Positions 9,673 through 59,970 of a stretch of 64,000 nucleotides of DNA are shown here, piece by piece (positions within the stretch are counted from its first letter, which is position 1; every line of letters starts with the position of its first letter). Below the pieces are notes generated by a model. That model did not search any database, was not told the origin of the DNA, and worked only from the letters and a program-made list of their open reading frames with translations. The DNA is from Ziziphus jujuba (lineage: Eukaryota > Streptophyta > Magnoliopsida > Rosales > Rhamnaceae): assembly GCF_031755915.1 (NCBI RefSeq), contig NC_083390.1, forward strand, positions 26,671,001 through 26,735,000, read 5' to 3'. Position numbers and translations under genes: made by a program.

Positions 9673-10683
9673 ATGGAATATAAATATCAATATTCATAGA
9701 TCATACCTTTCATTCCCCTTCTAACTCCTATGTTAATAGGAGTAGGACTTCTACTTTTTCCAACGGTAATAAAAAATCTTCGTCATATGTGGGTTTTTCT
9801 TAGTGTTTTACTGTTAAGTATAGTTATGATTTTTTCCGCCCATATATTTATTCAACAAATAAATAACAGTTTTATTTCTCTATCTGTATGGTCTTGGACC
9901 ATCAATAATGATTTTTCTTTAGAATTTGGCTATTTAATTGATCCACTTACTTCTTTTATGTTAGTATTAATCGCTACTATTGGAATTATGGTTCTTATTT
10001 ATAGTGATAATTATATGTCTCATAATCAGGGATATTTGAGATTTTTTGCTTATATGAATTTTTCTAATACCTCAATGTTAGGATTAGTTACTAGTTTAAA
10101 TTTGATACAATTTTTTTTTTTTTTTGGGGAATTAGTTGGAATGTGTTCTTACCTATTAATAGGTTTTTGGTTCACCCGACCTATTGCGGCAACTGCTTGT
10201 CAAAAGGTGTTTGTAACTAATCGTGTAGGGGATTTTAGGTTATTATTAGGAATTTTATGTTCTTGATTGGATAATGGGTAGTTTAGAATTTAGGTATTTG
10301 TTTGAAATATTCAATGCGTGGTTGATAATAATGAAGTTGATTTTTTAGTTGTTACTTTGTGTGCCTGTCTATTATTTGCTGGTGCAGTTGCTAAATCTGC
10401 CCAATTCCCCCTTCATGTATGGTTACTCGATGCTATAGAAGGACCTACCCCTATTTCTGCTTTTATACACACTGCTACTATGGTAGCAACCGGAATTTTT
10501 CTTGTAGCTCAGCTTCCCCCGCTTTACATAGTTATACCTTTCATAATGAATCTAATAGCTTTTATTTTGATAATAACATTACTTTCAGAAGCCACTTTAG
10601 CTTTTGCTCAAAAAGATATTAAGAGGGGTTTAGCTTATTCTACAATGTCTCAATTAGGTTATATGATGTTGGCTTTAGGTATG
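9673..10683 (+). pseudogene. ndhF: ndhF 5' part (plastid NDH subunit 5), split by a retrotransposon
   Basis: Begins at ATG 9673, where a stop occurs after eight codons, and runs as recognisable ndh[57 protein letters not shown], then after a damaged stretch at 10250-10320 [12 protein letters not shown] and [21 protein letters not shown]. The reading breaks exactly at 10683 where gypsy G1 begins. The gene continues at 19109. NdhF is a proton-pumping membrane subunit of the thylakoid NDH complex. The stops at codon 9 and around 10264 show that the copy was inactive whether or not it had been split. Confidence 0.93.
10679..10683. repeat. Target-site duplication GTATG, left
   Basis: GTATG directly precedes TGATACG of the first LTR and is repeated at 19109-19113. 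Five-bp duplication is usual for LTR-retrotransposon integrase. Confidence 0.9.
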
Positions 10684-11539
10684 TGATACGAACCTAGGAC
10701 GATCTGCTCCTAAACCCGTATTATATTAGCCTGGATCTAAATATGTTCAAGCTCTAATGGTCACCTTAACCCCTAACCAACGTGTGATTAGAAACCTTGA
10801 TATATAGTGAAGACACCACAATAAGTGATGGAAGTCCTATTGATAAATCAAACTAAAACACTCACGCTCTAATGGTGTTTTAGGTGTTCAAAAGAACAAA
10901 GAGAAATTCAATCTCACAAAATAAATTTTGAATATTATTAATGGCATGTTCTTCCTAAAAAATAAGCCCCTTTATAGGCTAAGATAAAACAAAATAAAAC
11001 CTAAAACAAAAAGGAAAAACCAGCCATGCAATGAAGAATCCTAATATGGCCGAAAGTCTCCTCCTTTCCTAATCTAATTTGGATGAATTAATTCCTTTAT
11101 TTTGAATTAGGAATTAATTAATTTACAATGAAAATAATAAAATAATAAATTTCCTAAACTTATTTGTCCAGAAAATAAATAAATAAAAATCAAAAGGTAA
11201 TGGTAATTTTCTAAAATAAAAAGTCAGAATCAAATTAGGAAACTAAAATACTAGCTTTTTGACTATGTTGATTTTGACCAATCTTTGACCAATTTGAGCT
11301 CCAAATCAGCTTCAATATGCTTTGTAGGATTCCAAATAAGCTTATTATGGATTCCCACACGTTGCCCTTGCTTGGAAGAAAGAGAAATAGCCAACTCAGC
11401 AAAATACAGTAAAGCCAGCAAGCAATACAGCAATTTTCGGCCAAATTTTGAAATTGTCTGTACAAGTCCGTAAAAGTTGGTTTTACTTCTGCCTTAACTT
11501 GTTTCCATGACATCTTAGTGATATTTATTGAATTCATAA
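10684..11539 (-). repeat. LTR a (3' LTR of G1, truncated)
   Basis: Matches LTR b over its U3-distal, R and U5 parts but stops at ATTGAATTCATAA (11535-11539), where it joins gag. The gag copy in G2 has CATAAGCATCTCC and LTR b has CATAAAGATTTGG, so the deletion used the 5-bp microhomology CATAA. The part missing is the roughly 275 bp carrying the polyprotein tail. Confidence 0.88.
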
Positions 11540-12204
11540 GCATCTCCATCTCCTTGTAATAATCCTCCACGGACCTACTTCCTTGAGATAAAGATTGAAG
11601 CCTGTGGTGCAGGAACCTATGATAGTGTGATGGTACGAATCGCTTCCTCATGGCTCCTTTCATTTGTCGCCATGTAGTAATCAAGTCATCACCAACTCTC
11701 CTTTGGGTGCTTTGCTCATTGGTCCACCATTGGAGTGCATAATGACCAAACTCCATTGCTGCCAACTTCACCTTCTTGGCCTGCGAATAGTTATGACAAT
11801 AAAAAATCATCTCCATTCTCTCCTCCCATTCCAAATATGCCTTCGAATCACTTTTTCCCATGACAGGTGGAATGTTTACCTTGATAGTCCCTAGATCATG
11901 ATCTTCATTCCTTGCTGGTCTCCCATGGATTGGCCTTTCTTGAGGTTCAAAAAATTTCATCAAATGCCTCATCCAAGTCATCTCCAAAGTTACTTCCCCC
12001 GAATTCCTCTCTTGGTCGCCCTTGGAGTCCTCCACCTCTACCTCGTCCTCCATGAGCATCCAATCTTATATTTGGCCCTCTTTGTGATGTTTCTATCATT
12101 TGCTCACCACTCCCCGTAGCTCGAGAACCACCATGGAATCCTACGAACTCTTATTCATTAATTCTTAAAGGTGGATCTCCTCTTCTCACCCTTAAATCTG
12201 CCAT
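11540..12204 (-). pseudogene. Truncated gag of G1
   Basis: Starts at ATG 12204 (MADLRVRRGDPPLRINE then an in-frame stop, as in G2) and covers the N-terminal low-complexity part and the gag capsid-like domain: NIPPVMGKSDSKAYLEWEER, FYCHNYSQAKKVKLAAMEFG and the region before VEDYYKEMEMLM. It ends where the deletion joins it to LTR a. The zinc knuckle, protease and all of pol are absent. Gag packages the element RNA, so this unit would have no enzyme and only half a Gag. The same stop in G1 and G2 fits their origin from one element. Confidence 0.85.
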
Positions 12205-13330
12205 GTTAGTATAAATAACATAAAAATAAAATAAGACCTCACCAAATTCACTCCCTCACGTGTTTCACTCAAACAAGAACTCGATATGCGTGTTTGCACA
12301 CTAATTTTGGCTTTTAACCCTCTTTTGAGCTCACACTCTCTTGCCTTTTTCCTCTCAATGAATTATCTCAAAGTTCTAACTAAAATACCCACAAAACAGC
12401 AATTAGATCACAAGTATGTTTTAATTAAACTTATCAACAAAATAGTAGCAAAAAGCAAGTAATACCAAATGAATTAACAAAACCTAGTTTTCAGCTTTCT
12501 AGGCAAAATAAAGCAAAATAATAAGGAAAATTTTGGAATTAGCAAGAACTGGACCAGATTGTAAGAGATTAAAGATTCAAGAATAGAATTTAGAAAAAAG
12601 AATTTCAAACATGAACAAGAATCAAATCGAACAAAAATATAGGATAGTGTTGGTTGTTGTCCTTGTAATTCAAGTTTTGTATCAAATCTTTCAACTAATT
12701 TTAATCAAATAATTTGACACCCAAATTTAAATATCCAGCAACAAAAATAATTCTTCAGAAATTCAAAATATTGGATAAATAATCAACAAAACAGCAGCTC
12801 CAATAAATTTCCAGCAACAAATTTCAACACCAACAAACTGAAATTTATTTTTTTTATTCGGCTTTTCTTCATCCTTTTTTGTTTCATGCTCACAGATCAT
12901 AAAAAAACTGCAGTAGCAAGAATCAACACCAAAATTGCAATTCCAACACCAAATAATAACCAAACCCGTGACCTCCAACAAAATACAAAAGTGCAGTTTT
13001 TTTTTTTTCTTAATCTGTTTAGCTGTTCTCTTCTTTTTTTTTTTTTTGATATATGAATGTAAATATTTAAGACTAAAATAGCAAAAAAAAATCAACAAAA
13101 GCAAAAATTAACAAGAACAATTGATGAAAAACAACCAACAAACTAGGAAACAAAAATATGATAAAACTAGAAATCCTAATTTAACTAGGAATGAATTTTT
13201 ATTTTTTGTATTTTTAAATATGCAGAACGTGTATGATGATAGAAGCAACCTTAACCTAATGCTAAAGTTGCAGATTAACACAACCAAAAAAGAGAGAAAA
13301 TAAAGATAGATCAAACCTGAACAAAATTCG
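12205..13330 (-). other. Untranslated leader of G1
   Basis: About 1.1 kb between PBS and gag start without coding sequence, with long A and T runs (e.g. 12990-13045). A near-identical leader lies at 16847-17974 in G2. Confidence 0.75.
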
Positions 13331-13342
13331 GCTTTGATACCA
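13331..13342 (-). promoter_or_regulatory. Primer-binding site of G1 (initiator-Met tRNA)
   Basis: On the minus strand TGGTATCAAAGC lies two bases after the LTR end. The plant initiator-Met PBS is TGGTATCAGAGC, so there is one mismatch. Confidence 0.85.
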
Positions 13343-13344
13343 AA

Positions 13345-14475
13345 TGATACGAACCTAGGACGACCTGCTTCTAAACCCGTATTATATTAGCCCGTATCTA
13401 ATTATGTTCAAGTTTTAATGGTCACCTTGACTCCTAACCAACCTGTGATTAGAAACCTTGGCATATAGTGAAGACACCACAATAAGTGAGGGAAGTCCTA
13501 TTGATAAATCAAACTAAAACACTCACGCTCTAATGGTGTTTTAGGTGTTCAAAAGAACAAAGAGAAATCCAATCTCACAAAATAAATTCTGAATATTATT
13601 AATGGTGTGTTCTTCCTAAAAACGAAGCCCTTTCATAGGCTAAGAGAAAAAAAATAAAACCCTAAAACAAAAAGGAAAAATCGACCATGCAATGAAGAAT
13701 CCTAATATGGCCGAAAGTCTCCTCCTTTCCTAATCTAATTTGGATTAATCAATTCCTTTATTTTGAATTAGGAATTAATTAATTTACAATGAAAATAATA
13801 AAATAATAACTTTCCTAAAATTATTTTTCCAGCAAATAAATAAATAAAAATCAAAAGGTAATGGTAATTTTCTAAAACAAAAAGTAGAATCAAATTAGGA
13901 AACTAAAATACTAGCTTTTTAACTATGTTGACTTTGACCAATCTTTGACCAATTTGAGCTCCAAATCAGCTTCAATATGCTTTGTAGGATGCCAAATAAG
14001 CTTATTATGGATTCCCACACGTTGCCCTTGCTTGGATGAAAGAGAAATAGCTAACTCAGCAAAATACAGTAAAGCCAGCAAGCAATACAGCAATTTTCTG
14101 CCAAACTTTGAAATTGTCTGTACAAGTCCGTAAAAGTTGGTTTTACTTCTGCCTTAACTTGTTTCCATGACATCTTAGTGATATTTATTGAATTCATAAA
14201 GATTTGGAACCATTTCTTACTACCCGGACTCCATAAATGCACCAAAACCACTACCTGGGTCTGTATTGGCTTTCACCGATTGTATGTTCAAAACGGGCCT
14301 TGTATCTTTAGGTATGGACAAGCCCTATTGAGAACGAATTACCCCCTAGATAAAGGCAACAAGATTATCCTTAAACATCTTAGCATGAGCCCTAGTGATT
14401 TTCCTTGTCTTCATCCGTATCGGGTCAGCACCCCAGCTCGTTGTCGGTTGTGCGGGTTCGGGCGGATTCGCATCA
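13345..14475 (-). repeat. LTR b (complete, shared by G1 and G2)
   Basis: 1131 bp; minus strand begins TGATGCG and ends CGTATCA. A PPT lies outside one end and a PBS outside the other, so it served as 3' LTR of G2 and as 5' LTR of G1. Its first about 300 bp continue the polyprotein frame (GADPIRMKTRKITRAHAKMF). It contains the inverted repeat GGAATTAATT found in all family LTRs. Confidence 0.9.
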
Positions 14476-14488
14476 TTCCCCTCCTCTT
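14476..14488 (-). promoter_or_regulatory. Polypurine tract of G2
   Basis: AAGAGGAGGGGAA on the minus strand immediately before the LTR b start; it would prime plus-strand DNA synthesis. It also encodes part of the frame (QEEGND) running into the LTR. Confidence 0.88.
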
Positions 14489-14950
14489 GAAAAGGATTTG
14501 TCCTCAAATCAAGATCATCACCTGAAGTAAAAGGAGATAATTCAGCAACATCAAATGTGTCACTAACATTATAGTTACCTAGTAAGTAAAGTTTGTCGGC
14601 ATTTTCATTGATTCGCACCAAAATTTGAAAAGTCCATCCCCTCGAGCCATAAGCTTTGACGTTTGGTACTTCGGAAACCTTTCATTTCTTAAGTGCAACC
14701 AAGTCCAATCTCCTGGGTCAAACACTAACACAACAAAATCTAAAAATACATGCTCATTATGGCAAAATTTACACTTTTTAAAGTTAGCAAATAATCTCTT
14801 CCAAATTTTCAAATTTCCACAAAGTAAAGCTCTCAACAAGGCAGATAAAGTTCTATACAACAAAAACATTTTTAAATAAGCATCTTTACGATTCATGACA
14901 AGAAATGGTTTCTTACTTAAGATAGATTTATTAACATCCCCAAAACTCAA
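14489..14950 (-). pseudogene. Rearranged pol of G2 (integrase piece, RT piece, integrase C-terminus)
   Basis: A compact frame where a complete element has about 3 kb of pol. In order it shows the stretch that normally precedes RT (MSFGDVNKSILSKKPFLVM), an integrase piece (RTLSALLRALLCGNLKIW), the end of the RT palm (RLFANFKKCKFC, VFLDFVV), then the integrase C-terminus (VFDPGDWTWLHLR, ARGDGLFKFW, LLGNYNVSDTFDVAELSPF). Integrase normally follows RT, so the order is scrambled. RT catalytic YxDD, RNase H and the integrase DDE core are missing. The same arrangement occurs in G5 and G9. It could not polymerise or integrate, so spread would need help in trans. Confidence 0.85.
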
Positions 14951-16846
14951 ATAAAAATTTTTATTTTTCCTTTCTCATTCACGGATTCATTGAATTTTGC
15001 ATTACTCTCGACTTTTTCTCCAAGTTTGTCACTCTCGGGTTTGTTAAAATATTTCCACTTAACCTGGGTTTTAGAGGACTTACCTTGGACAGCAAGCTCA
15101 CCTTTTCCCTCTTTAATGGATGGTGGAGCCGTTGGTGACATACTAGCCTTCTCTTTGAGCTTCTTAGCTTCCCTCCTTTGTTGCATTTGTAGTTGATCTC
15201 TAATAGCCTCCTTCGGAGTCAATGGCTCTAGCTTAACCTTCTTTCCTTTAATCTTAAAAACAATAAATTTCCCTCTCCCATAATATATGGCATCTTTATC
15301 ATATTTCCATGGTCTACCAAGTAGAATATATACCGAATGCATAGGCACAACATCACACAAAACCACATCTACATATTTATCAATGCTGAATTTTACTTTG
15401 GCTTGTTTATTAACTTTCATCTCACCACTATTATTAAGCCATTATAATCTATATGGTTCTGAATGTTTAATAGTTGTTAAGCCTAATTTATCAACCACAA
15501 GGTTACTAATTACATTGGTACAACTTCCACTATCAATAATCATGCTACAAATCTTACCTTGGATCTCACATCGGGTGTGGAAGATGTTCTCTCTTTGAAT
15601 TTCATCCTCATCTTTGTATGCAGCCAGCACTCTCCTAGAAACCAAGCTTAATTCAGCATGGGAAGCATTCAAAGTTTCAGCCTCACCTTCAAGCTCTTCC
15701 TCCTCCTCTTGCTCAGTTTCATCACCACTTTCCGATTCGAGCTCACCATTACCCTTCAGCACCATGATCCTTCTATTTAGGCATTGGCTAGTAATCTGTC
15801 CTCGTCCATGGCACTTAGAACAAATAATTTCTCTTGATCTTGAAGGTTTAGGATCAGATTTTACCTCATTTTTATGTGCTTGGACAGATTCGGCTTTAGG
15901 CTCCCTTTTTGGTTGATTAGTGCTTTCTTCTCCCACCTTTGGCTTTGGCTTGTTTCTCCAGCCACTTGGAATTGATCTTCCGCTGTTGGAAACTCCTCCA
16001 AAAGATGAGCCTACACCCCTCCTCTTGAATTGATGCTCTAATTTAATAGCCACATGCAACATCTCCTCCAATTCGACATATTGTTGCAATTCTAGTTGAT
16101 TGGCTATCTCTCGATTCAAACCACCACAGAATCTTGCCATTGTTGCTTCTCTATCCTCATTCATGCTTAACCTCATCATAAGCATCTCCATCTCCTTGTA
16201 ATAATCCTCCACGGACCTACTTCTTTGAGATAAAGATTGAAGCCTGTGGTGCAGGAACCTATGATAGTGTGATGGTACGAATCGCTTCCTCATGGCTCCT
16301 TTCATTTGTCGCAATGTAGTAATCAATTCATCACCAACTCTCCTTCGGGTGCTTTGCTCATTGGTCCACCATTGGAGTGCATAATGACCAAACTCCATTG
16401 CTGCCAACTTCACCTTCTTGGCCTCCGAATAATTATGACAATAAAAAATCATCTCCATTCTCTCCTCCCATTCCACATATGCCTCCGGATCACTTTTTCC
16501 CATGACAGGTGGAATGTTTACCTTGATATTCCCTAGATCTTCATCTTCATTCCTTGCTGGTCTCCCATGGATTGGCCATTCTTGAGGTTCAAAAAATTTC
16601 ATCAAATGCCTCATCCAAGTCATCTCCAAAGTTACTTCCCCCGAATTCCTCTCTTAGTCGCCCTTGGCCTCTTCCACCTCTACCTCGTCCTCCATGAGCA
16701 TCCAATCTTATATTTGGCCCTCTTTGTGATGTTTCTATCATTTGCTCACCACTCCCCGTAGCTCGAGAACCACCATGGAATCCTACGGACTCTTATTCAT
16801 TAATTCTTAAAGGTGGATCTCCTCTTCTCACCCTTAAATCTGCCAT
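14951..16846 (-). pseudogene. gag and protease region of G2
   Basis: From ATG 16846 the frame has an early stop, then is open from about 16629 to 15442 with the gag domain (NIPPVMGKSDPEAYVEWEER, FGHYALQWW, SVEDYYKEMEMLMMRLSM), a basic linker and a zinc knuckle CSKCHGRGQITSQC in which the His is replaced by Gln. After an acidic segment comes the protease motif IIDSGSCTNVIS. A stop at about 15442 is followed by the second protease motif VYILLGRPW and a charged linker (15420-14947). Gag packages RNA and the protease cleaves the polyprotein. The mutated knuckle and stops mean it is inactive. Confidence 0.88.
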
Positions 16847-17974
16847 GTTAGTATAAATAACGTAAAAATAAAATAAGACCTCACCAAATTCACTCCCTCA
16901 CGTGTTTCACTCAAACAAGAACTCGATATGTGTGTTTGCACACTAATTTTGGCTTTTAACCCTCTTTTGAGCTCACACTCTCTTGCCTTTTTCCTCTCAA
17001 TGAATTATCTCAAAGTTTTAATTAAAATACCCACAAAACAGCAATTAGATCACAAGTATGTTTTAATTAAACTTATCAACAAAATAGTATCAAAAAGCAA
17101 GTAATACCAAATGAATTAACAAAACCTAGTTTTCGGCTTTCTAGGCAAAATAAAGCAAAATAAGAAGGAAAATTTTAGAATTAGCAAGAACTGGACCAGA
17201 TTGTAAGAGATTAAAGATTCAAGAATAAAATTTAGAAAAAAGAATTTCAAACATGAACAAGAATCAAATCGAACAAAAATATAGGATAGTGTTGGTTGTT
17301 GTCCTTGTAATTCAAGTTTTGTATCAAATCCTTCAACTAATTTTAATCAAATAATTTGACACCCAAATTCAAATATCCAGCAACAAAAATAATTCTTCAG
17401 AAATTCAAAATATTGGATAAATAATCAACAAAACAGCAGCTCCAATAAATTTCCAGCAACAAATTTCAACACCAACAAACTGAAATTTATTTTTTTTATT
17501 CGGCTTTTCTTCATCCTTTTTTGTTTAATGCTCCCAGATCATAAAAAAACTGCAGTAGCAAGAATCAACACCAAAATTGCAATTCCAACACCAAATAATA
17601 ACCAAACCCGTGACCTCCAACAAAATACAAAAGTGCAGTTTTTTTTTTTTTAATATGTTTAGCTGTTCTCTTCTTTTTTTTTTTTTTTTTGATATATGAA
17701 TGTAAATATTTAAGACTAAAACAGCAAAAAAAAATCAACAAAAGCAAAAATTAACAAGAACAATTGATGAAAAACAACCAACAAACTAGGAAACAAAAAT
17801 ATGATAAAACTAGGAAATCCTAATTTAACTAGGAATGAATTTTTATTTTTTGTATTTTTAAATATGCAGAACGTGTATGATGATAGAAGCAACCTTAACC
17901 TAATGCTAAATTTGCAGATTAACACAACAAAAAAAGAGAGAAAATAAAGATAAATCAAACCTGAACAAAATTCG
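16847..17974 (-). other. Untranslated leader of G2
   Basis: About 1.1 kb between PBS and gag, almost identical to the G1 leader apart from run-length changes in the T and A tracts near 17640-17690. No coding signal. Confidence 0.75.
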
Positions 17975-17986
17975 GCTTTGATACCA
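17975..17986 (-). promoter_or_regulatory. Primer-binding site of G2 (initiator-Met tRNA)
   Basis: TGGTATCAAAGC on the minus strand, two bases from LTR c, with the same single mismatch as the G1 site. Confidence 0.85.
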
Positions 17987-17988
17987 AA

Positions 17989-19108
17989 TGATACGAACCT
18001 AGGATGACCTGCTTCTAAACCCGTATGATATTAGCCCGTATCTAATTATGTTCAAGTGTTAATGGTCACCTTGACCCCTAACCAACCTGTGATTAGAAAC
18101 CTTGGCATATAGTGAAGATGCCACAATAGGTGATGGAAGTCCTATTGATAAGTCAAACTAAAACACTCACTCTCTAATAGTGTTTTAGGTGTTCAAAAGA
18201 ACAAAGAGAAATTCAATCTCATAAAATAAATTCTGAATATTATTAATGGTGTGTTCTTCTTCAAAAAGAAGCCCTTTCATAGGCTAAGAGAAAAAAAATA
18301 AAACCCTAAAACAAAAAGGAAAAATCGACCATGCAATGAAGAATCCTAATATGGCCGAAAGTCTCCTCCTTTCCTAATCTAATTTGGATTAATCAATTTC
18401 TTTATTTTGAATTAGGAATTAATTAATTTACAATGAAAATAATAAAATAATAACTTTCCTAAAATTATTTTTCCAGCAAGTAAGTAAATAAAAATCAAAA
18501 GGTAATGGTAATTTCCTAAAACAAAAAGTAGAATCAATTTAGGAAACTAAAATACTTGCTTTTTGACTAAGTTGACTTTGACCAATTTGAGCTCCAAATC
18601 AGCTTCAATATGCTTTTTAGAATGGTAAATAAGCTTATTATGGAGTCCCACACGTTGCTCTTGCTTGGAAGAAAGAGAAAAACCCAACTCAGCAAAATAC
18701 AGTAAAGCCAGCAAGCAATACAACAATTTTTGGCCAAATTTTGAAACTGTCCATACAAGTCCGTACAATTTGGTTTTACTTCTACCTTGAATTGTTTCCA
18801 TGACCTATTAGTGATATTTATTGAATCCATAAAAATTTGGAACCATTTCTTGCTACCCGAAGTCCATAAATGCACAAAAACCGCTACCCGGATCCGTATC
18901 ATCTTTCACCAATTGTATGCTAAAAAACGGCCTTGTATCTTTGGGTATGGACAAGCACTTTTGAGAATGAATTACCCCCTAGATAAATTCAACAAGGTTG
19001 TCTTTAAACCTCTTAGCTTGAGCCCTAGTGATCAGCCCAGTCTTCATCCATATCGGGTCAACACCCCAACGAGTTGTCGGTTGTGCGGGTTTGGGCAGAT
19101 TCGCATCA
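17989..19108 (-). repeat. LTR c (5' LTR of G2)
   Basis: 1120 bp, minus strand TGATGCG to CGTATCA. More diverged from LTR b than a and b are from each other in the shared part, with several short indels. Ends directly at GTATG and resumed ndhF. Confidence 0.9.
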
Positions 19109-20357
19109 GTATGGGGTCTTATTGAGTGGCTTTATTTCATTTGGTTACTCATGCTTATTCAAAAGCATTGTTGTTTTTAGGATCTAGATCAATTATTCAT
19201 TCCATGGAAACAATTGTTGGATATTCTCTAGATAAAAGCTAGAATATGGTTCTTATGGGTGGTTTATGAAAACATGTACCAATTACAAAAACTGCATTTT
19301 TATTAGGTACACTCTTTCTGTGTGGTATTCCACCCCTTGCATGTTTTTGGTCCAAAAATGAAATTCTTAGTGATAGTTGGTTATATTCACCGATTTTTGC
19401 AATAATCACTTGTTCCACAGCTGGCTTAACTGCATTTTATATGTTTCGAATCTATTTACTTACTTTTGAAGGACATTTAAACCTTCAATTTCAAACTTAC
19501 AATGAAAAAATAAAATAGCTCGTTCTATTCAATATCTCTATGGGGTAAAGAAGGGCAAAAAGTTATTAAAAAAATGTTACTTTATTAACAATGGATAATA
19601 ATGAAAGGGCTTCTTTTTTTTTTTCTAAAAAGGCATATCGATTTGATAGTAATCTAAGAAGCATGATGCGCCCTTTTATTATGATTAGTCATTCTGGAAC
19701 TAAGAACACTTTCTCATATCCGCAGGAATCGGACAATACTATGCTATTTCCTATGCTTGTATTAGTACTATTTACTTTGTTCATTGGATTCATAGGAATT
19801 CCTTTCTTCAATCAATTCAATCAAGAAGCTATGGATTTGGATATATTATCAAAATTGTTAAATCCAGCGATAAACCTTTTACATCCAAATCCAAATACTT
19901 CTGTGGATTTGTATGAATTTATTTCAAACGCAACTTTTTCATTTAGTATGGCTTTTTTTGGAATCCTTATATCATCTTTTTTATATAAGCCATTTTATTC
20001 CTCTTTACAAAATTTGAATTTCTTTAATTCATTTGTTAAAAGTATTCCTAAAAAAAGAAAAATTCTTGGGGAAAAACTATTAAATGGGATATATGATTGG
20101 TCATATAATCATTGTTACATAGATGTTTCTTATGCAATATGCTTAACTAAAGGTGTAAGAGGATTGGCTCAACTAACTCATTTTTTGATAAACGAATAAT
20201 TGATGGAATTACGAATGGTATTGGTATTGCGAGTTTTTTCGTAGGAGAAGGTATCAAATATATGGGGGGAGGTTGAATTTCTTCCTATCTCTTAGACTAT
20301 ATATCTTATGTATTGATCTTTTTATTCATTTACTTTTTATTTTCTTTTAATTTATAA
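19109..20357 (+). pseudogene. ndhF: ndhF 3' part (plastid NDH subunit 5)
   Basis: Resumes with GTATG of the duplication (GSY, then a stop where Arg is usual) and continues: [70 protein letters not shown]. After frameshifts around 19515-19590 it is open from 19591 to 20199, with [20 protein letters not shown] and [17 protein letters not shown] frame then reads [18 protein letters not shown] and reaches a stop at 20355-20357. Together with 9673-10683 it accounts for essentially the whole roughly 740-codon gene. Confidence 0.92.
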
Positions 20358-22600: not shown

Positions 22601-23993
22601 GTTGCCAGCTAGCACTAATCATATATATATATAAGTAATAATCAAGCATGCATGCATGTATTGTATGTGGAATAATGCCAAGATATGCATATTATCATGG
22701 CCCCTTATGTTATTGTAAGTTGAGGTTGCCTAGCTAATGCAGTCATAATTAATATGTATGTATCTAAGTATGGTGCCATTACAGTTTATGATATGGCAAC
22801 TTTATGTTACTTTTATTAATGCTATGGTCTTTCAAATGAAATATTATTAAATTGTATTATCCTATGGTCTGCAAATATTTTGAGAACCAATTTTTCTTAT
22901 GCATGTAACCAGGGGTGGACCTTTGAGGGCAAAGTTTTTTTTAAAAAAAAAATTAAATAAATAAAAAATTGTAATATACAATGTTAATTGATCATAAGGA
23001 AAAATAAAAATAAAAACCATATATTCTAAATTTAACAAAAGCATATAAAAATACATGCAATAAATATAATCACTTATTTAAAATAACTTTTCGATTTTTC
23101 TTTTAAATTTTACAAACATCTTATCATTTTATTTTTTTATAGATCAAATTTTTTTCTTTTGTTGAATAACAAAGATGTATAATTTATAGTTGCTGAACAA
23201 AGATATGTACATATATAATTGATACTTTAGTAAGAAATATATTATTTTAGTATATTTTTATTTATAGCATGTATGTTTTATTTTTTTTGGTTTAAAAACA
23301 GTGTAAAGTTTATATAAGATACTTTTAGTTGATAAACTACTTACATCTATAATTTAAAAACTCTAACATATTTTCTTGGACACTAATCATCACACCTCAC
23401 ATGCTTGCACTCCGCTGCTCCTCTGGCATGCCATAATTTTTAACATATTCTATTGGGCACTACTCACTACACCTCACATGCATGCACTCCATTGCTCCTC
23501 TGGTACTAATTTTAACATAATTTTTCAATTTAATTAATCTGAGCATCATATTTCATTAGCTAATTTGTCAATGCAACCATCTCAAAAACTTATACAAAAT
23601 AATTAAATTATTTTACCATGCAATGTCACCTCAAAAAGTATTATATCTAATTTTAGATATGAAAAAAAAAAAAAAAGTTATCAAAAAATGAAATATATCT
23701 TCCATACGTTTTTGTAGTTGGTTCTTTGTTAAGAAAGATAGATTTTTTTTTTAATAACAAAGATGTATAATTTATAGTTGCCGAACAACGTACGTATGTA
23801 TATAATTGATATTTTAGTAAAAAATATATTATTTTAGTATACTTTTATTCACCGTATATATAATCTTTATTTAAAAATAATATAAGATACCATGATATGC
23901 ATATTATCATAGCCTTTTATGTCAACTTAAATCATATGTTGAGGCTGCCTAGCTGATGCAGCAATAATGAATATGTATGTATGTATGGTTGGT
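22600..23993. repeat. AT-rich unclassified DNA with degenerate ~600-bp repeats
   Basis: No gene. A unit with AATAACAAAGATGTATAATTTATAG, then AGTTGATAAACTACTTACATC, then CACCTCACATGCATGCACTCC and CTGCTCCTCTGGCA occurs at about 23140-23740 and again in part at 23745-23993; the CTCCTCTGGCA motif alone appears twice about 80 bp apart. The same units recur at 32130-33566. It may be host spacer or an unrecognised non-coding element. It ends TTGGT, where the LTR of G3 begins. Confidence 0.6.
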
Positions 23994-25124
23994 TGATACG
24001 AACCTAGGTCGACTTGCTCCTACACCTGTACTATGCTAGTCCGGCTCGAAATTAAGTTCAGATTCTAATGGTCACCTTGACCCCTAATCAACTTGTAACT
24101 AGAAACCTTGGTATATGATGAAGACCCCACAGTAGGTGATGGATGTCCTATTGATAAGTCAAACTAAAACACTTGATCTCTATTAAGTGTTTTAGGTGTT
24201 CAAAGAGAACAAAGAGAATTCTTCTCACAAATAAGTTTTGAATAATAATCTAAACTGCTTTATCATTGAAAAATAAGCCCTTAAATAGGCTAAGGTTTAC
24301 AAAACAAAAACCTTAAATCACATTAGGAAAACCGGCCATAGGTTCAGGAAACATGATCTGGCCGAATTTCCTTTACTTTACTAATCTAAATTGGATTAAT
24401 GAGTTCCTTTATTTTGAATTAGGAATTAATTAATTTACAACCAAATAATAAAATTCTAACTTTCCTAAAGTAATTTTTCCAGCAAATAAATAAATAAATA
24501 ACCAAAATAAAGACTATTTCCTAAAACAAAAATCAAAGTTTCAAATTAGAAAACTAGTTGACTAGCTTATCAAATAAGCTGTCTTTAACTAATCACCAGC
24601 TAGTTTATGCTCCAAATCAGTTCCAATATGCCATGTAGGATGCCAAATAGGATTAATATAGGTTCCCATACATTTCCCTTGATGGGAATAAGGAAAACTT
24701 GCTTGATTCACAAGAAAGGTCAAAGTCAGTGCCAAAACCATGCATTTTCGGCCAAATTGAACCCCATATGCAAATACCTCATTTGAATAGCTTCAGTTCT
24801 ACCTTGACATAATTCCATTGTCCCTTGGTGATTTTAATAATGTTCACAAGTTAACAAAGTAATCCCTTGCTGCCTGGAACCCTTAGATGCAGCAAAATAG
24901 CTTGTCAGGTCCATTTCTACCTTCATAACTTAGATACATAAGCGGGCTTTGGATCTTCAGGTATTACCATGACCTCTTGAGATTTAATCACACTTTGAAT
25001 GAAGCTAACCAGGTTATCCTTAAATCTCTTTACTTGCACCCTTGTGATCTGCCTCATCTTTAGTTGTATCGGATTAGCTCCTCAATGGGTAGTTGGTTGT
25101 ATGGGTACAGACGGATTCTCATCA
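23994..25124 (-). repeat. 3' LTR of G3
   Basis: 1131 bp; minus strand TGATGAG to CGTATCA. Carries the GGAATTAATT inverted repeat and a coding-frame start continuing pol. Clearly diverged from LTRs a-c and closer to the G4 and G8 LTRs. Confidence 0.88.
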
Positions 25125-25136
25125 TTTTTCTCCTTT
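25125..25136 (-). promoter_or_regulatory. Polypurine tract of G3
   Basis: AAAAGGAGAAAA on the minus strand at the LTR edge; the run of G in the family tract has partly mutated to A. Confidence 0.75.
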
Positions 25137-26150
25137 TGAAAAGGATTTGCCCTCAAATCAAAATCATTACCTGCAGCAAATGGAGATAAATCAGCAACAT
25201 TAAAGGTAGCACTCACATTATATTCACCTAGTAAGTTAATTTTATAAGCATTTCCATCGATCCTCTCCAAGACTTGAAAATGTCCATCCCCTCGAGGCAT
25301 AAGCTTTGACTTTCATTGTTCCAGAAACCTCTCCTTTCTTAAGTGCAACCAAACCCAATCTCCTGGATTAAACACTATCACAACAAATCCGAGAAATACA
25401 AGCTCATTTCGGCAAAAATTACACATTTTGATATCACAAACAATCTTTTGTTCCTAAGTACTTCTAAAACTAACCTAAGATGTCCTACATGATCATTTAA
25501 ATTTCGGCTATATACAAGAATATCATCAAAGTAAACAACCACAAATTTTCCAATGAATGGATGCATGACATGGTTCATTAATCTCATGAAAGTGCTAGGT
25601 GCATTAGTTAAACTAAAAGGCATTACTAACCACTCATACAAACCATACTTAGACTTAAATGCGGCTTTCCATTCATCCCCCTCTTTCATCCTAATTTGAT
25701 GATACCTACTACTAAGATCAATTTTAGAAAACATGCATGCACCATACAATTCATCAAGCATATCATCTAATCTAGGAATAGGATGCCTATACTTAATGGT
25801 TATATTATTAATGGCCCTACAATCAACACACATGCACCATGAATCATCTTTCTTAGGTACTAATAAAATAGGGATAGCACATGGACTCATGCTTTCTCTA
25901 ATGTAACTTTTTTCAAGGAATTCACTGACCTGGCTTTGTAGCTCCTTTGTCTCCTCGGGATTACTTCTATATGCAGGCCTATTAGGAAAAGTAGTTTCAG
26001 GAATAAAATCAATTTGATATTCAACTCCTCGAAGAGGTGGTAAACCACTAGGAATTTCCTCCGAAAAGACATCATTAAATTCCTGCAAAAAAGAAGAAGT
26101 AGAACTTGGCAAGTCAAACGCTTTCAGGGTTAGCTTGATAATTTAGATAA
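25137..26150 (-). pseudogene. Shortened pol of G3 (RT palm fused to integrase C-terminus)
   Basis: The RT part is well preserved: pre-RT segment with FSEEIPSGLPPLRGVEYQID, then [73 protein letters not shown] and the catalytic VVYFDDILVYS. After the RLFVISKC segment the frame shifts and reads ELVFLGFVV directly into VFNPGDWVWLHLRKERF, MPRGDGHFQVLERIDGN and LGEYNVSATFNVADLSPF. So the RT thumb, RNase H and integrase zinc and DDE domains are deleted. The identical joint is found in G2, G4, G5, G8 and G9. RT alone is near complete but interrupted by a frameshift. Confidence 0.88.
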
Positions 26151-28240
26151 ACATCTTTGTAAATCATGACCAGAAATGGTTTATTACTCAAAGTTTCCTT
26201 TTTAACCTCACCTAAACTAAGATTTTTTTTTTCTTTTTCTTCTCTTTTCTTTCTTTTTCTTTACATCTTTCGGCCACCACTATTTTTCCCTCACTCTCGA
26301 CTTTCTCACCATTTTTCTCTCTCTTGGGTTCATCTATCCTTTTCCCCACAAATTCAATTTTTGAAGACTTACCTTGGATGGATGAGTCGGCCTTACCTCC
26401 CTTCACAAATGGTGAAGCCATGGGTGCCATGCTTGCTTTGTCCTTGAGCCGTTTGGCTCCCTTCTTTGTTGCATTTGAAGTTAGTCTCTAAATACTTCTT
26501 TTGGAGTTAATGGCTCTAGCTTAATCTTATTTTCCTTAAATTTAAATACAATAGAATTCTCTCTACCATAATGTATGGTATCTTTACCAAATTTCCATGG
26601 CCTACCCAATAAAATATGGCCAGCATGCATGGGAACAACATCACATAAAACAACATCCACATATTTATCAATGCTGAATTTCACCTTAGCTTATTTGTTT
26701 ACTTTCATCTCACCACTATCATTAAGCCATTATAATCTATATGGTTGGTGATGTTTAATGGTTAGTAACCCTATTTTCTCAACTACAACATTACTAATTA
26801 CATTAGCCCAACTTCCACTATCAATTATCATACTACAAATGCTACCTTGTAGTTCACATCGAGTATAGAAGATGTTTTCTCTTTTGATTTGATCCTCATT
26901 TTTATACATGGTTAGAACCTTCCTTACTACCAAGCTCAGTTCAGCTTTTGAGGCTTTAAGTGTCTCAGGTTCTTCATGTTCTTCATCTCTAATTTCTTCA
27001 TCAACAAATTCGGTCTCTTTCTCCGATTCTTCACTTTCGGACTCCAACTCTCCGTTGCCTTTCAACACCATTATTCTTCGATTCGGACATTGATTGGCAA
27101 TATGTCCTTGACCCCGGCACTTAAAACAAATAATGTCATGAGTTCTAGAAGGTTTAGAATCAAGCTTACTACTCGATTTAGATGCTAGTGGGTGTTCTGC
27201 CAGATTGTCTTTCCTTAGCCGGTTGGAGCTCTCTTCACCATGTTTCAGTTTTGGCTTTGTGTTATATGTGGGATTGCTTCTCCAAACACTTGAATTAGGC
27301 CTCCCGCTGCTGGAAACTACTCCAAACCGTGAGCTTATATCCTTCTTCTTGAATTGGTTCTCAATTTTAATGGCCATATGTAACATCTCTTCCAATTCTA
27401 CATATTGTTGTAATTCCACTTGGTTCGCTATCTCTCGATTTAAACCTCCCAAAAACCTTGCCATGGTTGCCTCACGGTCCTCATTCATGCTCAACCTCAT
27501 CATGAGCATCTCCATCTCCTTGTAGTAGTCCTCCACGGTCCTACTTCCTTGTGATAATGATTGAAGCTTTTGATGCAGCAATCTATGGTAATGAGTCGGC
27601 GTAATCTCTTTCTCGTGGCTCCTTTCATTTGTCACCAAGTTGTAATTAATTCATCACCAACTCTCCTTTGGGTACCTTGTTCATTATTCCATTGTCGGAG
27701 TGCATAATGTCCAAATTCCAAAGCGGCCAATTTAACCTTCTTTGCCTCGGAATAGTTGTGGCAATCAAATATCATCTCTATATGCTCCTCCCACTCTAGG
27801 TAAGCCTTCAGATTGCTCTTTCCCATAAAAGGTGGTATGTTGACCTTAATATTTCTAAGATCATCATCTTCCTTCCAAACTTTTCTCCCATGGGTTTGCC
27901 TCCTTTGGAGTGCAAAAACATCTTCAAACTCCTCCTCTAGGTTATCTCCATAATTACCTTCTTCAAAGTCCTCCCCATAACGTCCGCGGCCTCTTTAACC
28001 TCAACTTCGGCCTCCATGAAATTTTTGCCTTGGGTTCGGTCTTCCTTGTGGTGTTTCTAACCTTCTTTGATCTAGGTGATCAAAGCGAGCATTTATCCTT
28101 TGAAGTTGTTTCAAAACCGCCATTATGTCGGTAGGTGTAACTCCACTTCCTGTAACTCTAGAATCCCCTTTGAATCCCATGGATTCCTCTTCAGTATTTC
28201 TTAATGAATCACCTCCTCTTTTTAATCTTGAATCTATCAT
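26151..28240 (-). pseudogene. gag and protease of G3
   Basis: Starts at ATG 28240 (MIDSRLKRGGDSLR). The gag domain shows NIPPFMGKSNLKAYLEWEEH and FDCHNYSEAKKVKLAALEFG, then after a stop and frameshift near 27635 SRTVEDYYKEMEMLMMRLSM and GGLNREIANQ. The zinc knuckle CFKCRGQGHIANQC is fully conserved (C-x2-C-x4-H-x4-C), the only clean one here. The protease motif IIDSGSWANVIS follows, then HILLGRPWKFG and a Lys/Glu-rich linker. Stops at the protease border (about 26730 and 26690) break the polyprotein. Best-kept Gag nucleocapsid of the window. Confidence 0.88.
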
Positions 28241-29080
28241 GTTTGTAAAAATAATGCAAAAAACCTTGCTAAATTCATTTCCTCATGTGTTTCACTCAAA
28301 CAAGGTCTCGACACTCGTGTTTGCATGCTAATTTTGGCTTTTATCCCTCTTTTAAGCTCACACTCTCTTGCCTTTTTTTCACTCACAAGAATATCTCAAA
28401 GTTCTATTAAAGCACACTTAAAATAGCAACTAAATCACAAATATGCTCTAATTAAACTAATCAACAAAACAACAACTAAAACAAGCAAATACCGAGTGAT
28501 TTGACAAAACCTAGTCTCGGCCAATCTAACCAAAACAACGGTAAAATTAACAAAGTAAATTTTTAGATTTAACAAAAGATAAATTAGAATATTAAGGACC
28601 AATAATTCAAGGATAAAATCTGGAAAAGAGATTTAAACAACGAGCAAGAAATAATTTGAACAAAATATGGAAAAGTTGTTGTTGTAGTTTGTGTAATTTA
28701 AGTCTTTGTCTCAAATCCTATAACAATTTTAATCCAAACAAATTTAGCACTCAAAATTCAAAATCTAGCAACCAAATATTGAACAAATAATCAGCAACCC
28801 AGCAATTACAATTGTGTTTTCCAAAAACAATCAATTTCCTAACAATAATCTACCAAAACCAGCCTTTGCGCATAATTTTTTATTTTTTTTAATCTTCATC
28901 TTTTGTTCCTTTTTTTTTTTTTTTTAAATCACTCCCAGAATATAAAAACCAACTCCAGTAGCAAGAAACAACACCAAAATTGCAATTTCAATGCCAAAAT
29001 ATCACCAAACCTGATCCACTCTCCAAACAAAAACAAATTGTCCAATTTTTAGGTTTTTGATGCAATATGACTTCAAATCT
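28241..29080 (-). other. Untranslated leader of G3 (truncated)
   Basis: Leader sequence matching the G1/G2 leader in layout (repeated CAGCAACAAA-type motifs, A/T runs). It stops short of the PBS at the junction with the hairpin array. Confidence 0.7.
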
Positions 29081-32000: not shown

Positions 32001-32129
32001 AATTAATTATTTTGCTTCGTATTCCTAATTAATATATTTAATATTTATATACATGTGAATAAAATATAAAATTAATTAAAATTTCAAAAGTTAAGACAAT
32101 TGGCGATGCTTTTGATGTTAAAAGCTAAT
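29081..32129. repeat. C4: tandem array of about 13 hairpin units from a CACTA subterminal region
   Basis: Roughly 230-bp units, each starting near AACACAATAGGCGACGCTTT, then TGATGTTAAAAGCGTCGCC or a variant. GGCGACGCTTTT pairs with AAAAGCGTCGCC around a 6-nt loop. The rest of each unit is AT-rich (CTTTTCAATTTTAAAATAATT, TATTTAATATTTATATAC). Units start near 29104, 29334, 29563, 29790, 29998, 30230, 30464, 30706, 30950 and on to 32095, the last ones more degraded. The same unit ends C3 at 52680-53680 and a related core fills C1. Neither a TIR nor transposase remains, so this is an orphan array. Confidence 0.8.
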
Positions 32130-34682: not shown

Positions 34683-34695
34683 TTCCCCTCCTTTT
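34683..34695 (-). promoter_or_regulatory. Polypurine tract of G4
   Basis: AAAAGGAGGGGAA on the minus strand adjoining the LTR. Confidence 0.8.
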
Positions 34696-35911: not shown

Positions 35912-36239
35912 ATTTGCTTTATTTTGCCTAGAAAAGCCGAAACTAGGTTTTGTTGAATTCTTTCGGTATTGCCTACTTTTAGCTACTGTTTTATTGATAA
36001 GATTAATTAAAACAAGTTTAATTAAAACATACTTGTAATCTAATTGCTGTTTTGTGGATGTTTTAATTAGAACTTTGAGTTAATTCTTTGAGTCGAAAAA
36101 GGCAAGAGAGTGTGAGCTTAAAAGAGGGTAAAAGCCGAAACTAATGTGCAAACATGAGCGTCGAGACCTTATTTGAGTGAAACACGTGAGGGAGTGAATA
36201 TTGTGAGGATTTATTTTATTTTTGCAGTATTTTACTAAC
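35912..36239 (+). other. Leader of G5 (3' part)
   Basis: Reverse complement of the leader segments at 12205-12545 and 16847-17190; no coding sequence. It runs up to the gag start. Confidence 0.72.
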
Positions 36240-38244: not shown

Positions 38245-38713
38245 TTATCTTAGCTTTGGTGATGTTAATAAATTAATTATGAATATGAAATCATTGCTGA
38301 CCATGAATTTTAAAGATACTTATTTAAAGATGTCTTTATTGCATAGAACTTTATCTGCATTCTTAAAGCTTTACTTAGTGGAAATTTGAAAATTTGGAAA
38401 AGATTATTTGCTAACTTTAAAGAAAGTAATTTTTGCTATAATGAGCATGTATTTTTAGTTGTTGTTGTGATATTGTTTGATCCAGGAGATTTGCACTTAA
38501 GGAAGGAGAGGTTTCCCGAGTAGTGGAATCAAAACTTATGCCACGAGGAGATGGATCTTTTTAAGTTTTGGAAAGGATCAATGAAAACACCTACACGCTT
38601 GATTTACTGGGTTCGTATAACATCAGTGCTGGATTTAATGTTGCTGATTTATTCCCATTTGCTGCAGATGATGATCTCAATTTGAGGACAAATCCTTTTC
38701 AAGAGGAGGGGAA
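38245..38713 (+). pseudogene. Rearranged pol of G5 (integrase-RT-integrase order)
   Basis: Follows the same layout as G2: SFGDVNK, the pre-RT segment (FKDTYLKM), an integrase piece (HRTLSAFLKL), an RT-end piece in a shifted frame around 38395-38460, then the integrase C-terminus with GSYNISAGFNVADLFPF and NPFQEEGND. Several frameshifts. The tail frame, open from 38568, passes through the PPT and runs to 38909 within the LTR. Confidence 0.82.
38701..38713 (+). promoter_or_regulatory. Polypurine tract of G5
   Basis: AAGAGGAGGGGAA immediately before TGATGTG of the LTR. Confidence 0.88.
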
Positions 38714-45301: not shown

Positions 45302-46480
45302 GAGAATGATTTGCCTTCAAATCAAAATCATCACCTGTAGAAAAAAGAAGATAAATTAGAAACATTAAAAGTAGCACTCACGTTATACTCCACCTGGCAA
45401 ATCATGCTTGTAGGCGTTTTCATTGACCCTCCCTAAAACTTGAAAAGGTCTATCTCCTTGAGGCATAAGCTTTGACTTGCGTTGTTCAATAAATATCTCG
45501 TTTCTTAAATACAATCAAACCCAATCTCCTGGTTTGAATACTACCTTAATCCGACCTTGATTAGCAGCTTTAGCATACTGTTTAGTCCTCCTATCAATGT
45601 TTACTATAGTCTTTTCATGAATTTGCTTAACAAACTCAGTTTTCTATTTACCATCAAGATTAGCATGTTCACGTAAAGGCAAAGGTATTAAATCTAATGG
45701 AGTTAAAGGATTAAAACCATAAAAAAGTTTGAATGGTGAATATTTAGTAGCAGAATGTATGGTTCTATTATAAGCAAACTCAACATTTGGCAAACATTCT
45801 TCTCAAGTTCTCAAATTTCCACTAATTAATGCTCTCAACAATGCAGACAAACTTCTATTCACTCCTTCATTTTATCCATCAGTTTGTGGATGACAAGTAG
45901 TGAAAAATAAAAAATTTTGTACCCAACTTAGCCCATAATATTTTCCAAAAATAACTTAAAAACTTAGCATCCTTATCTGAAACAATAGTCCTACGCATGC
46001 CATGAAGTCTCAGTACTTCCTTAAATAGCAAATTAGCTACATGAGATGCATCATCAATCCTATTACATTCTATGAAATATGCCATCTTAGAAAATCATCA
46101 ACAACCACAAAAATATAGTCCTTACCCATCCTTAACCTAGGTAACCCAAATACAAAATCCATAGATAAATCTACCCAAGGATAAGAACGAATAGGTAATG
46201 GCATATACAAACCATGTGGTTTAAGCTTAGATTTTGACTTTCTACACGTGATATACCTCTCACAAATCCTCCTTACATCTCTCCTCATGTTCGACCAATA
46301 AAAGTATTATTGTAATATGGACAAAGTTTTTGCTACACCAAAGTGTTCCCTTAAACCCCCACCGTGACCTTCTTTAACAAGTAATTCCCTAATGCTACAA
46401 CAAGGCACACAAAGTTGACTTTCCTTAAGCAAGTATCCATCAAATATATCTATAACCATGTTTAGCACAATTTCTATATA
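45302..46480 (-). pseudogene. Integrase of G6
   Basis: Decayed gypsy integrase. Zinc-domain remnant CERYITC at about 46240, then [20 protein letters not shown] with the first catalytic Asp, [14 protein letters not shown] with the second, and after a stop NEGVNRSLSALLRALISGN with the Glu. The C-terminal region reads VVFKPGDWV-like sequence (about 45530) and NVSATFNV-like sequence before the PPT. Integrase joins element DNA to the host. All three catalytic positions can be read, but in different frames with stops in between. Confidence 0.82.
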
Positions 46481-46489: not shown

Positions 46490-47660
46490 AGTTTATATCA
46501 TGCTCATAAATTTCCTTACTCGTTCAAAACCAAACAATTTAGCATCTAAGGTTGAAAATAAAACATACCTTCGGGATAAAGCATCGACTACCACATTATC
46601 TTTAACTTTCCTGTAGCGTATGACATAAAGAAAAGTCTCAATGAATTCAATCCACCTTCCATGCCATCGGTTAAGCTTATTTTGGCCTTTAATATGCTTC
46701 AAAGATTCATGATCTGTGTTAATCCCAAATTTCTTTGGCATCAAGTAATGTTGCCATGTCTCCAAAGCTCAAACTAAAGCATACATCTCTTTGTCCTAGG
46801 TTGGATAATTCAATGCTGCCCCATTCATCTTCTCACTAAAGTATGTTATAAGTCTTCCTTCGTGCATCAACACTGCTCCAATACCTACACTTGAAGCATA
46901 CATTCCATCTCAAAAGTCTTAGAAAAATTAGGTAAAACCAATAGAGGAGCATTAGTTAATTTTTCTTTCAACAAGTTAAAAGAATTTTCTTGTGCCTTTC
47001 CCCATTGGAATCCCACACTCTTCTTGATTATTTTGGTCAATGGTGCTGCAATAGTACTAAAGTCCTTGACAAATCTCTTGTAAAAACTAGCCAAACTATG
47101 AAAACTTCTTACTGGGTAATAGTAATAGGTTTCGGCCAATCTTGGATTGCTTTGACCTTGGATTGGTTAACCTTGATTCTTACAACACTCATAACAAATC
47201 TTAGAAACACAAGCTCATCTTGACAAAAATCACACCACTTTTTGAGATTAGTAAGCAATCCTTCTTTCCTAAGTGCTTCTAAAATGAATCTAAGGTGTTC
47301 TACATGTTATCTAAATTCCTACTATATACAAGAATATCATCAAAAATAAACAACCATAAATTTTTCAATGAATTGGTGCATAACATGGTTCATTAATGTC
47401 ATGAATGTACTAGGTGCATTAGTTAATCCAAAGGCATTACTAACCACTCATACAAACCATGTTTTATCTTAAATGCAATCTTCCATTCATCTCCCTCGTT
47501 CATTCTTATTTGATGAGACCCATTCCTAAGGTCAATCTTCAAAAACATGCATGCACCATATAATTCATCAAGCATATCATCTAATCTAGGAATAGGATGC
47601 CTATACTTGACAGTTATGTTGTTAATGGCCCTACAATCTACACACATTCTCCAAGATCAA
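46490..47660 (-). pseudogene. Reverse transcriptase and RNase H of G6
   Basis: RT starts with [27 protein letters not shown] and [15 protein letters not shown]. The catalytic region at about 47330-47370 is damaged. The segment after the palm continues normally ([17 protein letters not shown]), unlike the fused copies. The thumb/connection reads [20 protein letters not shown] and [17 protein letters not shown]. RNase H follows with [20 protein letters not shown] and VVVDALSRR. These enzymes copy RNA to DNA and degrade the template. Numerous frameshifts and stops. Confidence 0.84.
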
Positions 47661-59301: not shown

Positions 59302-59970
59302 TTGAGTTTTGGTGATGTTAATAAAGCAATTTTGAATAAGAAATCATTGCTGATTATAATTTATAAAGATGTTTATTTAAAGATGTTTTTATTGTATATA
59401 ATTTTATCTGCATTGTTGAAAGCTTTACTTAGTGGAAATTTGAAAATTTGGGAAAGATTGTTTGCTACTATTAAGTGTGATTTTTGCCAAAATGAGCTTG
59501 TGTTTCTAGTATTTGTTGTGATAGTGTTTAACCCAAGAGAATTTGTTTGGTTGCATTTAAGAAAGGAGAGATTTCCCAAGCAATTAATGTCCAAGCTTAT
59601 GCCATGTAGGGATGGTACTTTCCAAGTCTTGGAGCGGACTAATGAAAATACCTTTCAAGAGGAGGGGAATGATGTGAATAAGCCCGTGCCCGCACAACCG
59701 ACAACCCGCTGGGGTGCTGATCCGATACGGATGAAGACGGGGCTGATCACTAGGGCTCAAGCTAAGAGTTTTAGGGAAAACCTTGCTGAATTTATCCAGG
59801 GAGTAATTCATACTCAAGAGGGCTTGTCCACACCTAAAGATCCAAGACTTGTTTTGAGCATACAGGTGGTGGAAGCCGATACGAACCCGCATAGCGGTTT
59901 TGGTGCATTTATGGAGTTTAAGCAGCATGGAATGATTCCAATGCTTCATGAATTCAATACATATGTCTAA
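59302..59970 (+). pseudogene. Rearranged pol of G9: open 222-codon frame running into the LTR
   Basis: Uninterrupted frame. Residues 1-35 are the pre-RT segment (MSFGDVNKAILNKKS, YKDVYLKM). Residues 36-55 are an integrase piece (LSALLKALLSGNLKIW). Residues 56-75 are the RT end (RLFATIKCDFCQNELVFL, FVV). From about 76 comes the integrase C-terminus (VFNPREFVWLHLRKERFPKQ, FQVLERTNENT), shortened by about 35 residues relative to G5. QEEGND is encoded over the PPT. About 100 more residues lie in the LTR: GADPIRMKTGLITRAQAKSF, DPRLVLSIQVVEADT, MIPMLHEFNTYV, stop at 59968-59970. No catalytic site is present. The frame may be open by chance or recent origin. Confidence 0.82.
59657..59669 (+). promoter_or_regulatory. 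Polypurine tract of G9
   Basis: AAGAGGAGGGGAA directly before TGATGTG. Confidence 0.88.

Follow-up and report, generated by a model that had tools for sequence, protein, structure and literature searches.

The window, by which we mean the whole 64-kb stretch of DNA that was analysed, contains about ten LTR matches that belong to one Ty3/gypsy family with LTRs of 1.1 kb. The individual copies are referred to here as G1 to G9, and further loci of the genome carry the prefix L. Typical hallmarks of LTR retrotransposons are present, namely LTRs of the form TG...CA, a primer site beside the 5′ LTR and a purine tract before the 3′ LTR. Pfam searches of the window found gag, protease and RT, with several of the matches below the curated cut-off. 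In the gag-protease region of G2, both Ty3_capsid and Asp_protease_2 stayed under their cut-offs (the latter with 18.6 bits in G2, compared with 25.5 bits in G5, at a cut-off of 24.3), and no Pfam family was found in the scrambled frame of this copy. The domain order PR-RT-RH-IN of Ty3/gypsy elements could be pieced together from the loci L050 (PR, then RT, then RNase H), L042 (RT, then RNase H) and L018 (RNase H, then integrase core). Among the three copies on which we focus, G2, G5 and G9, only G2 has two LTRs in the window, while G5 and G9 lack their 5′ parts. The coordinates of the relevant features are compiled in Table 1.

Several further arrangements were noticed in the window. G1 carries an internal deletion that reaches from the middle of gag into the 3′ LTR; six bases overlap where the ends are joined (11534-11539). 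Together, G1 and G2 (10684-19108) have one LTR in common and a single GTATG target repeat around both. Locus L011 on contig C6 possesses the flanks of G1-G2 save one base, yet it is a single element, and therefore G1-G2 looks like the product of an unequal exchange after segmental duplication. An interpretation of G1-G2 as a template-switching complex of the type described for Triticeae (PMC1950507) was considered and rejected: the shared LTR and the GTATG repeat are present, but the outer LTRs are 91% alike, compared with 95% between the G1 and the middle LTR and 92% between the middle and the G2 LTR. G3 (23356-26346) and G4 (32949-35907) have ~640 bp of flank plus element sequence in common, at 92% identity, which suggests a segmental duplication and not separate insertions. 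Head-to-head inverted pairs, their LTRs pointing outward, occur twice and are formed by G4 (-) and G5 (+) at 33573-39843, meeting at ~35901-35907, and by G8 (-) and G9 (+) at 56860-60793, meeting at ~58192-58197; each join has an overlap of 6-7 bp and no LTR in between. Tandem repeats of ~230 bp, all of one family, form arrays at 29062-32190 and 52808-53681.

Table 1 Positions of the element features discussed in the text; coordinates refer to the window.
Feature	Position	Strand	Remarks
Target-site repeat GTATG, left of G1-G2	10679..10683	.	
LTR common to G2 (as 3′ LTR) and G1 (as 5′ LTR)	13345..14475	(-)	
G2 integrase C-terminal piece	14579..14729	(-)	continues to 3′ LTR; 81-82% to G3 and L012, 75% to G6
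G2 RT-end piece (RLFANFKKC...FLDFVV)	14730..14798	(-)	matches RT ends of G3 (E 1.2e-10) and L042 (E 4e-10)
G2 integrase piece	14799..14857	(-)	reads RTLSALLRALLCGNLKIW; 84% over 64 nt to G6 integrase 45798-45861, E 1.4e-15
G2 pre-RT joint, composite	~14858-14872	(-)	TTTAAA plus scrap of later FKDVF region
G2 pre-RT piece	14873..15010	(-)	alignment with G6, G3, G4 and G7
G2 gag and start of protease	15442..16629	(-)	Retrotrans_gag 62.9 bits (cut-off 24.1)
G2 5′ LTR	17989..19108	(-)	K80 to the LTR shared by G1 and G2 0.084
Target-site repeat GTATG, right of G1-G2	19109..19113	.	
RT to integrase C-terminus joint in G3	25371..25377	(-)	
RT to integrase C-terminus joint in G4	near 34929-34935		
G5 integrase piece	38340..38414	(+)	RT end to ~38475, then integrase C-terminus
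G6 integrase piece, usual place	45787..45861	(-)	
G6 RT end, usual place	47184..47262	(-)	upstream of integrase
RT to integrase C-terminus joint in G8	near 57906-57913		
G9 integrase piece	59393..59465	(+)	RT end to ~59525, then integrase C-terminus

Order of the pol pieces and their joints

An earlier, sequence-only reading had held that in G2, G5 and G9 a piece of integrase precedes the RT piece. We compared the pieces one by one by BLAST with the pol region of G6 in sense orientation, and this order was confirmed at the nucleotide level: in the three copies, pre-RT is followed by ~60 nt of integrase, then by ~70 nt of the RT end and by the integrase C-terminus, whereas G6 reads RT, integrase and integrase C-terminus. 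The integrase pieces of G2, G5 and G9 match positions 2230-2301 of G6 pol (E 1e-15, 7e-14 and 1e-17, respectively), the RT piece of G9 matches positions 856-902 and the integrase C-terminus of G2 positions 2548-2683, with E values from 7e-14 to 5e-20 for this group of matches. For the RT-end piece of G2, the piecewise BLAST gave no match in G6 pol; the stretch of L042 that it matches lies within the RVT_1 match of that locus, which identifies the piece as the C-terminal end of the region covered by RVT_1. The integrase piece comes from immediately beyond the stretch of integrase that rve matches in L018, and the integrase C-terminal piece of G9 reached 26.9 bits with SH3_Tf2-1, below the cut-off of 30. 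The scrambled pieces are short fragments, not domains. That the supposed integrase piece might be diverged RT or linker does not hold, as the pieces match integrase and, among five targets, the three integrase-bearing ones alone, save one 19-nt match with an E value of 0.004. G6, which had been called complete, does show the usual pol order with RT before integrase, but no 5′ LTR was seen for it.

The joints lie in one frame, with G2 and G9 open across them and G5 carrying a frameshift. At the pre-RT joint, TATTTAAA is followed by bases resembling GATGTCTTT, which agree with the later FKDVF region of G7, and then by integrase; the scrap from the FKDVF region measures ~15 nt and is joined at TTTAAA, a motif present at both parent places in G7. 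Where integrase passes into RT, GAA-GAA of the integrase (in most copies seen) meets GAA-AGA of the RT, a 3-base match, with an additional near-match downstream. The joint from RT to the integrase C-terminus, which had been described as shared with copies of the G3 type, is indeed found at the same place in G2, G5, G9, G3, G4 and G8; it is absent from G6 and G7. Short microhomologies alone do not tell strand transfer from end joining.

Genome-wide spread, age and coding potential

The 394-Mb genome, comprising 14 contigs, was searched with the G2 block of 372 bases as the query. The best 40 of 3383 first-look candidates all matched over at least 366 of the 372 bases with 90-100% identity. A genome-wide look for the integrase-to-RT joint, as the sequence-only reading had proposed, was carried out with an exact pattern consisting of the integrase start and the joint, and returned 103 places (55 and 48 on the two strands) compared with 0 for the reversed control. 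Twenty of the 39 other matches were read, and all 20 loci had identical joints; together with G2, G5 and G9, this makes 23 rows out of 23 with the same joints. At 12 of the 20 loci, both LTRs are present along with gag and protease, over ~5.8 kb and without a usable RT or integrase, and one of these two-LTR loci, L029, has an internal deletion in its 3′ LTR. Exact 5-bp target repeats surround G1-G2 (GTATG) and three of the 12 loci (L016, L027 and L028), four of five bases agree at L011 and L021, and the repeat has 7 bp at L019; at the other six loci none was seen, with several LTR ends being worn. Since all copies that were read have one set of joints and some complete copies are set in target-site repeats, the scrambled structure was formed once and multiplied as a whole thereafter. 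It is thus an inherited trait of a successful, genome-wide non-autonomous family and does not represent three odd copies.

Among deposited proteins from short contigs, integrase precedes RT in P0001-P0004; P0001, P0002 and P0004 extend across the last joint, and the first joint is present in P0001, P0003, P0004 and P0005. The viral and prokaryote sequence collections contained no relative of the scrambled block. An apparently better conservation of the scrambled block than of gag or LTR in L011-L030 was set aside, as these loci had been ranked by that very block; among G2, G5 and G9, the block shows no better conservation than the LTR does.

For the age of the family, we used 13 LTR pairs (the 12 loci and G2), leaving out the pair of G1 (K80 0.052), one LTR of which is common to G1 and G2. 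The K80 distances range from 0.084 to 0.124 with a mean of 0.099, and their standard deviation of 0.0105 compares with ~0.0086 expected from sampling. Judged by these distances, the LTR pairs appear to record one period of amplification. At assumed rates, this amplification would date to roughly 4-11 Myr ago. Two scrambled pairs, L026/L030 and L015/L017, share ~97-99% of their LTR and protease bases, more than the age of the burst would give, and appear to be later duplicates or late copies.

The common frame of the joints, together with 12 of 23 rows that show neither a stop nor a net frameshift to just past the last joint, raises the question of whether selection maintains the scrambled tail as a coding module joined in frame to gag-protease. 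P0001-P0004, with integrase before RT in an open frame, would fit such a module, but they were found as open frames, so their openness was selected by the search. Over the whole 372-nt stretch, an excess of third-position changes exists in the comparisons G2-G5 and G2-G9 (p 0.009 and 0.008) and was not found in G5-G9 (p 0.21), but this excess sits in the pre-RT and C-terminal parts, whereas the IN+RT block has it in 0 of 9 pairs (p 0.25-0.80, at low power). Within the burst, there is no third-position excess either (singletons 53/36/50, shared 24/16/24 for the three codon positions), whereas the excess is clear for gag. The codon-position test gives no support to coding selection on the IN+RT block, and we regard a selected coding module as very improbable.

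Exchange with RT-bearing relatives and origin of the scramble

To avoid choosing on the scrambled block, a second search was performed with the protease region. Of 4203 candidates, the best 40 were scored and 30 of these were read, yielding 17 scrambled loci (including the window and the near-duplicate L032, with some others being loci of the first set), 11 with RT and 2 with neither. Sequence from the RNase H-integrase stretch of G6 follows the RT at 10 of the 11 RT-bearing loci, while L059 is cut in RT. In the protease tree, scrambled and RT-bearing loci are intermixed. For a set of 43 rows chosen by similarity to G2 (30 scrambled vs 13, leaving out the undecided loci L039 and L045), with groups that were named after the tree had been seen, a single clade of scrambled copies is rejected with p-AU 5.5e-8 and a single clade of RT-bearing copies with p-AU 2.6e-5, and the tree contains at least seven changes of pol state. 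A close set of 12 of the 30 scrambled and 9 of the 11 RT rows was picked from the tree cluster that holds RT-bearing rows; the rows left out were L050 and L059, both with RT, and all scrambled ones from other parts of the tree. This choice favours seeing mixture, as deeper scrambled clades have no RT-bearing partner in the sample; in this set, one scrambled clade is again rejected (p-AU 2.3e-4), with at least five changes of state.

Within the close set, the ratio of between-kind to within-kind distance is 0.98-1.06 over the ~2.3 kb of leader end, gag, protease and linker, an alignment that is partly uncertain upstream owing to nested gag insertions and the purine-rich linker and for which protease is the clean part; it rises to 1.37 only in the last interval compared. 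All four combinations of SNP and pol state occur at 336 of 364 sites with a minor count of at least 4, and likewise at 36 of 41 protease SNPs. This picture changes in the last ~20 bp before the first joint (sites 2438-2457), where none of five SNPs has the four combinations, while the next site upstream, 2430, again has all of them; the last 11 sites include none with four combinations, 7 of these 11 lying past the first joint, where the two kinds are not homologous. One linker haplotype is common to L060 and L025 (scrambled) and L048 and L051 (RT), and a second one to L028 and L024 (scrambled) and L047 and L056 (RT). Because the scrambled copies that were read carry one set of joints, recombination between linker and pol block is needed. 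In the LTR tree, which includes three intact-integrase LTRs from outside the window, two of them near-identical, the LTR of the intact-integrase element L012b is nested within the scrambled ones (support 83/80), and a single clade of scrambled LTRs is rejected with p-AU 1.8e-4.

The sequence-only reading had suggested template switching between packaged RNAs, and recombination between scrambled and RT-bearing elements is borne out by the SNP combinations and the rejected clades, both in the close set and in the protease tree. In the close cluster, gag-protease is shared freely, and linkage to the pol state persists only within the final ~20 bp ahead of the first joint. Ectopic gene conversion among chromosomal copies, rather than recombination of packaged RNAs, could also mix gag-protease; it is possible at high copy number, and sequence patterns alone look alike for both routes. 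However, the 21 loci of the close set are spread over 10 contigs, the 13 LTR pairs agree with one age and recombination of co-packaged transcripts is documented for Onsen (PMC5668417), and we hold the conversion route to be unlikely.

We think it probable, on balance, that the scrambled copies constitute a non-autonomous Ty3/gypsy family that keeps gag-protease, carries scrambled scraps of RT and integrase, is supplied in trans and exchanges gag-protease with RT-bearing relatives by template switching. The family keeps the LTRs, primer site, leader, gag and protease. Since RT and integrase domains are absent, RT-bearing relatives of the same genome would provide both activities in trans, and the exchange of gag-protease would proceed through template switching when RNAs of both kinds are co-packaged. 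With less certainty, the founding scramble may itself go back to strand transfer of this type, occurring at short microhomologies and on already deleted templates: minus-strand synthesis would leave the RT end carrying the RT-integrase joint, next copy ~60 nt of integrase and then return to pre-RT.

A scramble at the DNA level, by deletion and end joining with a 60-nt integrase filler, followed by transcription and amplification of that copy, is possible rather than probable. End joining is generally known to give short templated filler with microhomology as well, and DNA-level rearrangements do occur here, as in the head-to-head joins of G4/G5 and G8/G9 with their short overlaps, but the order of the pieces needs several jumps, and recombination of packaged RNA, documented in another plant family, Onsen (PMC5668417), fits the exchange of gag-protease. 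Returning to template switching, the earlier reading had placed it on a parent of the G3 type as a second event. Recombination between scrambled and RT-bearing elements is supported, but for the scramble itself, template switching on such a parent would be a conjecture, with neither LTRs nor sequence identity pointing specifically to the G3 type. A G3-type parent appears plausible because the RT-integrase joint, when immediately preceded by RT sequence (a few codons in the pattern), has four exact places in the genome, one of them being G4 of the window; a looser pattern gives six places and may admit scrambled copies too. In LTR comparisons, the scrambled copies cluster with G7 and with elements whose integrase is intact, and not with G3, G4 and G8. 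The C-terminal piece is 80.7% identical to G3-type vs 75.3% to intact elements, with the intact L012b at 81.5%, as near as G3-type copies (79-82%). The RT-end piece is likewise only slightly nearer to the G3 type (74.7%) than to the intact elements (72.4%), and identity does not single out one donor for either piece. Two exact-pattern genome searches for intermediates gave 0 places each; the first used the same 20-base word that returns 103 places with the scrambled continuation, and the second was run without such a control, so its 0 says less.

Going further, and tentatively, enzyme-bearing and scrambled elements might be viewed as alternative alleles at a single pol locus, within an RNA population or quasispecies that recombines freely, with the defect spreading as a cassette through changing autonomous backgrounds, a view that we consider possible but less likely than not. 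If true, linkage would have been broken down by recombination to a distance of tens of bases from the defective block. Families of retrotransposons are commonly depicted as clonal trees. Here, the scrambled block serves as a unique marker with which recombination between enzyme-bearing and defective elements becomes measurable like population linkage, from one genome, and it cautions that elements may be misplaced when judged solely by domain order or by a gag-protease tree. A defective derivative has reached high copy number without a usable RT or integrase of its own.

Comparison with known systems

In soybean, Du et al. reportedly described, in 2010, a partnership of an autonomous and a non-autonomous element with LTR swapping. 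That pair likewise involves exchange between autonomous and defective partners; it swaps LTRs, whereas in the present family gag-protease mixes up to the pol block. As for LTR exchange, the one intact-integrase LTR found among scrambled LTRs is L012b, out of the three intact LTRs from outside the window that were compared.

The TR-GAG elements (PMC10025401) likewise keep LTRs and gag, have lost RT and integrase and are presumed to be mobilised in trans, with LARD and BARE-2 being neighbouring non-autonomous LTR retrotransposons of this kind. Like them, the scrambled family has kept gag and has no RT or integrase domain; unlike them, it retains protease and scrambled pol scraps, so that gag is not its sole coding domain. 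For Onsen bursts, frequent pairwise recombination of co-packaged transcripts is described (PMC5668417), in a text in which the word 'non-autonomous' does not occur. Recombination among transcripts would be common to both systems, with one partner here lacking RT and integrase. A wheat study, which treats families as mostly clonal, also names template switching as a route by which LTRs pass between sub-populations (PMC9744471). For Triticeae elements, aberrant template switching has been invoked for building new elements; the resulting complexes are LTR-int-LTR-int-LTR fusions, whereas the scrambled family shows a small shuffle inside pol (PMC1950507).

An integrase upstream of RT is known from Gmr1-like Ty3/gypsy elements, where the order concerns whole domains (PMC8220671). 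The copies studied here contain fragments of 60-70 nt and no whole integrase domain upstream of a whole RT domain. Among the titles and abstract openings covered by our literature search, no high-copy plant family with a scrambled pol block was found. The family is of a known kind, a non-autonomous LTR element with gag and protease, here with a scrambled pol block.
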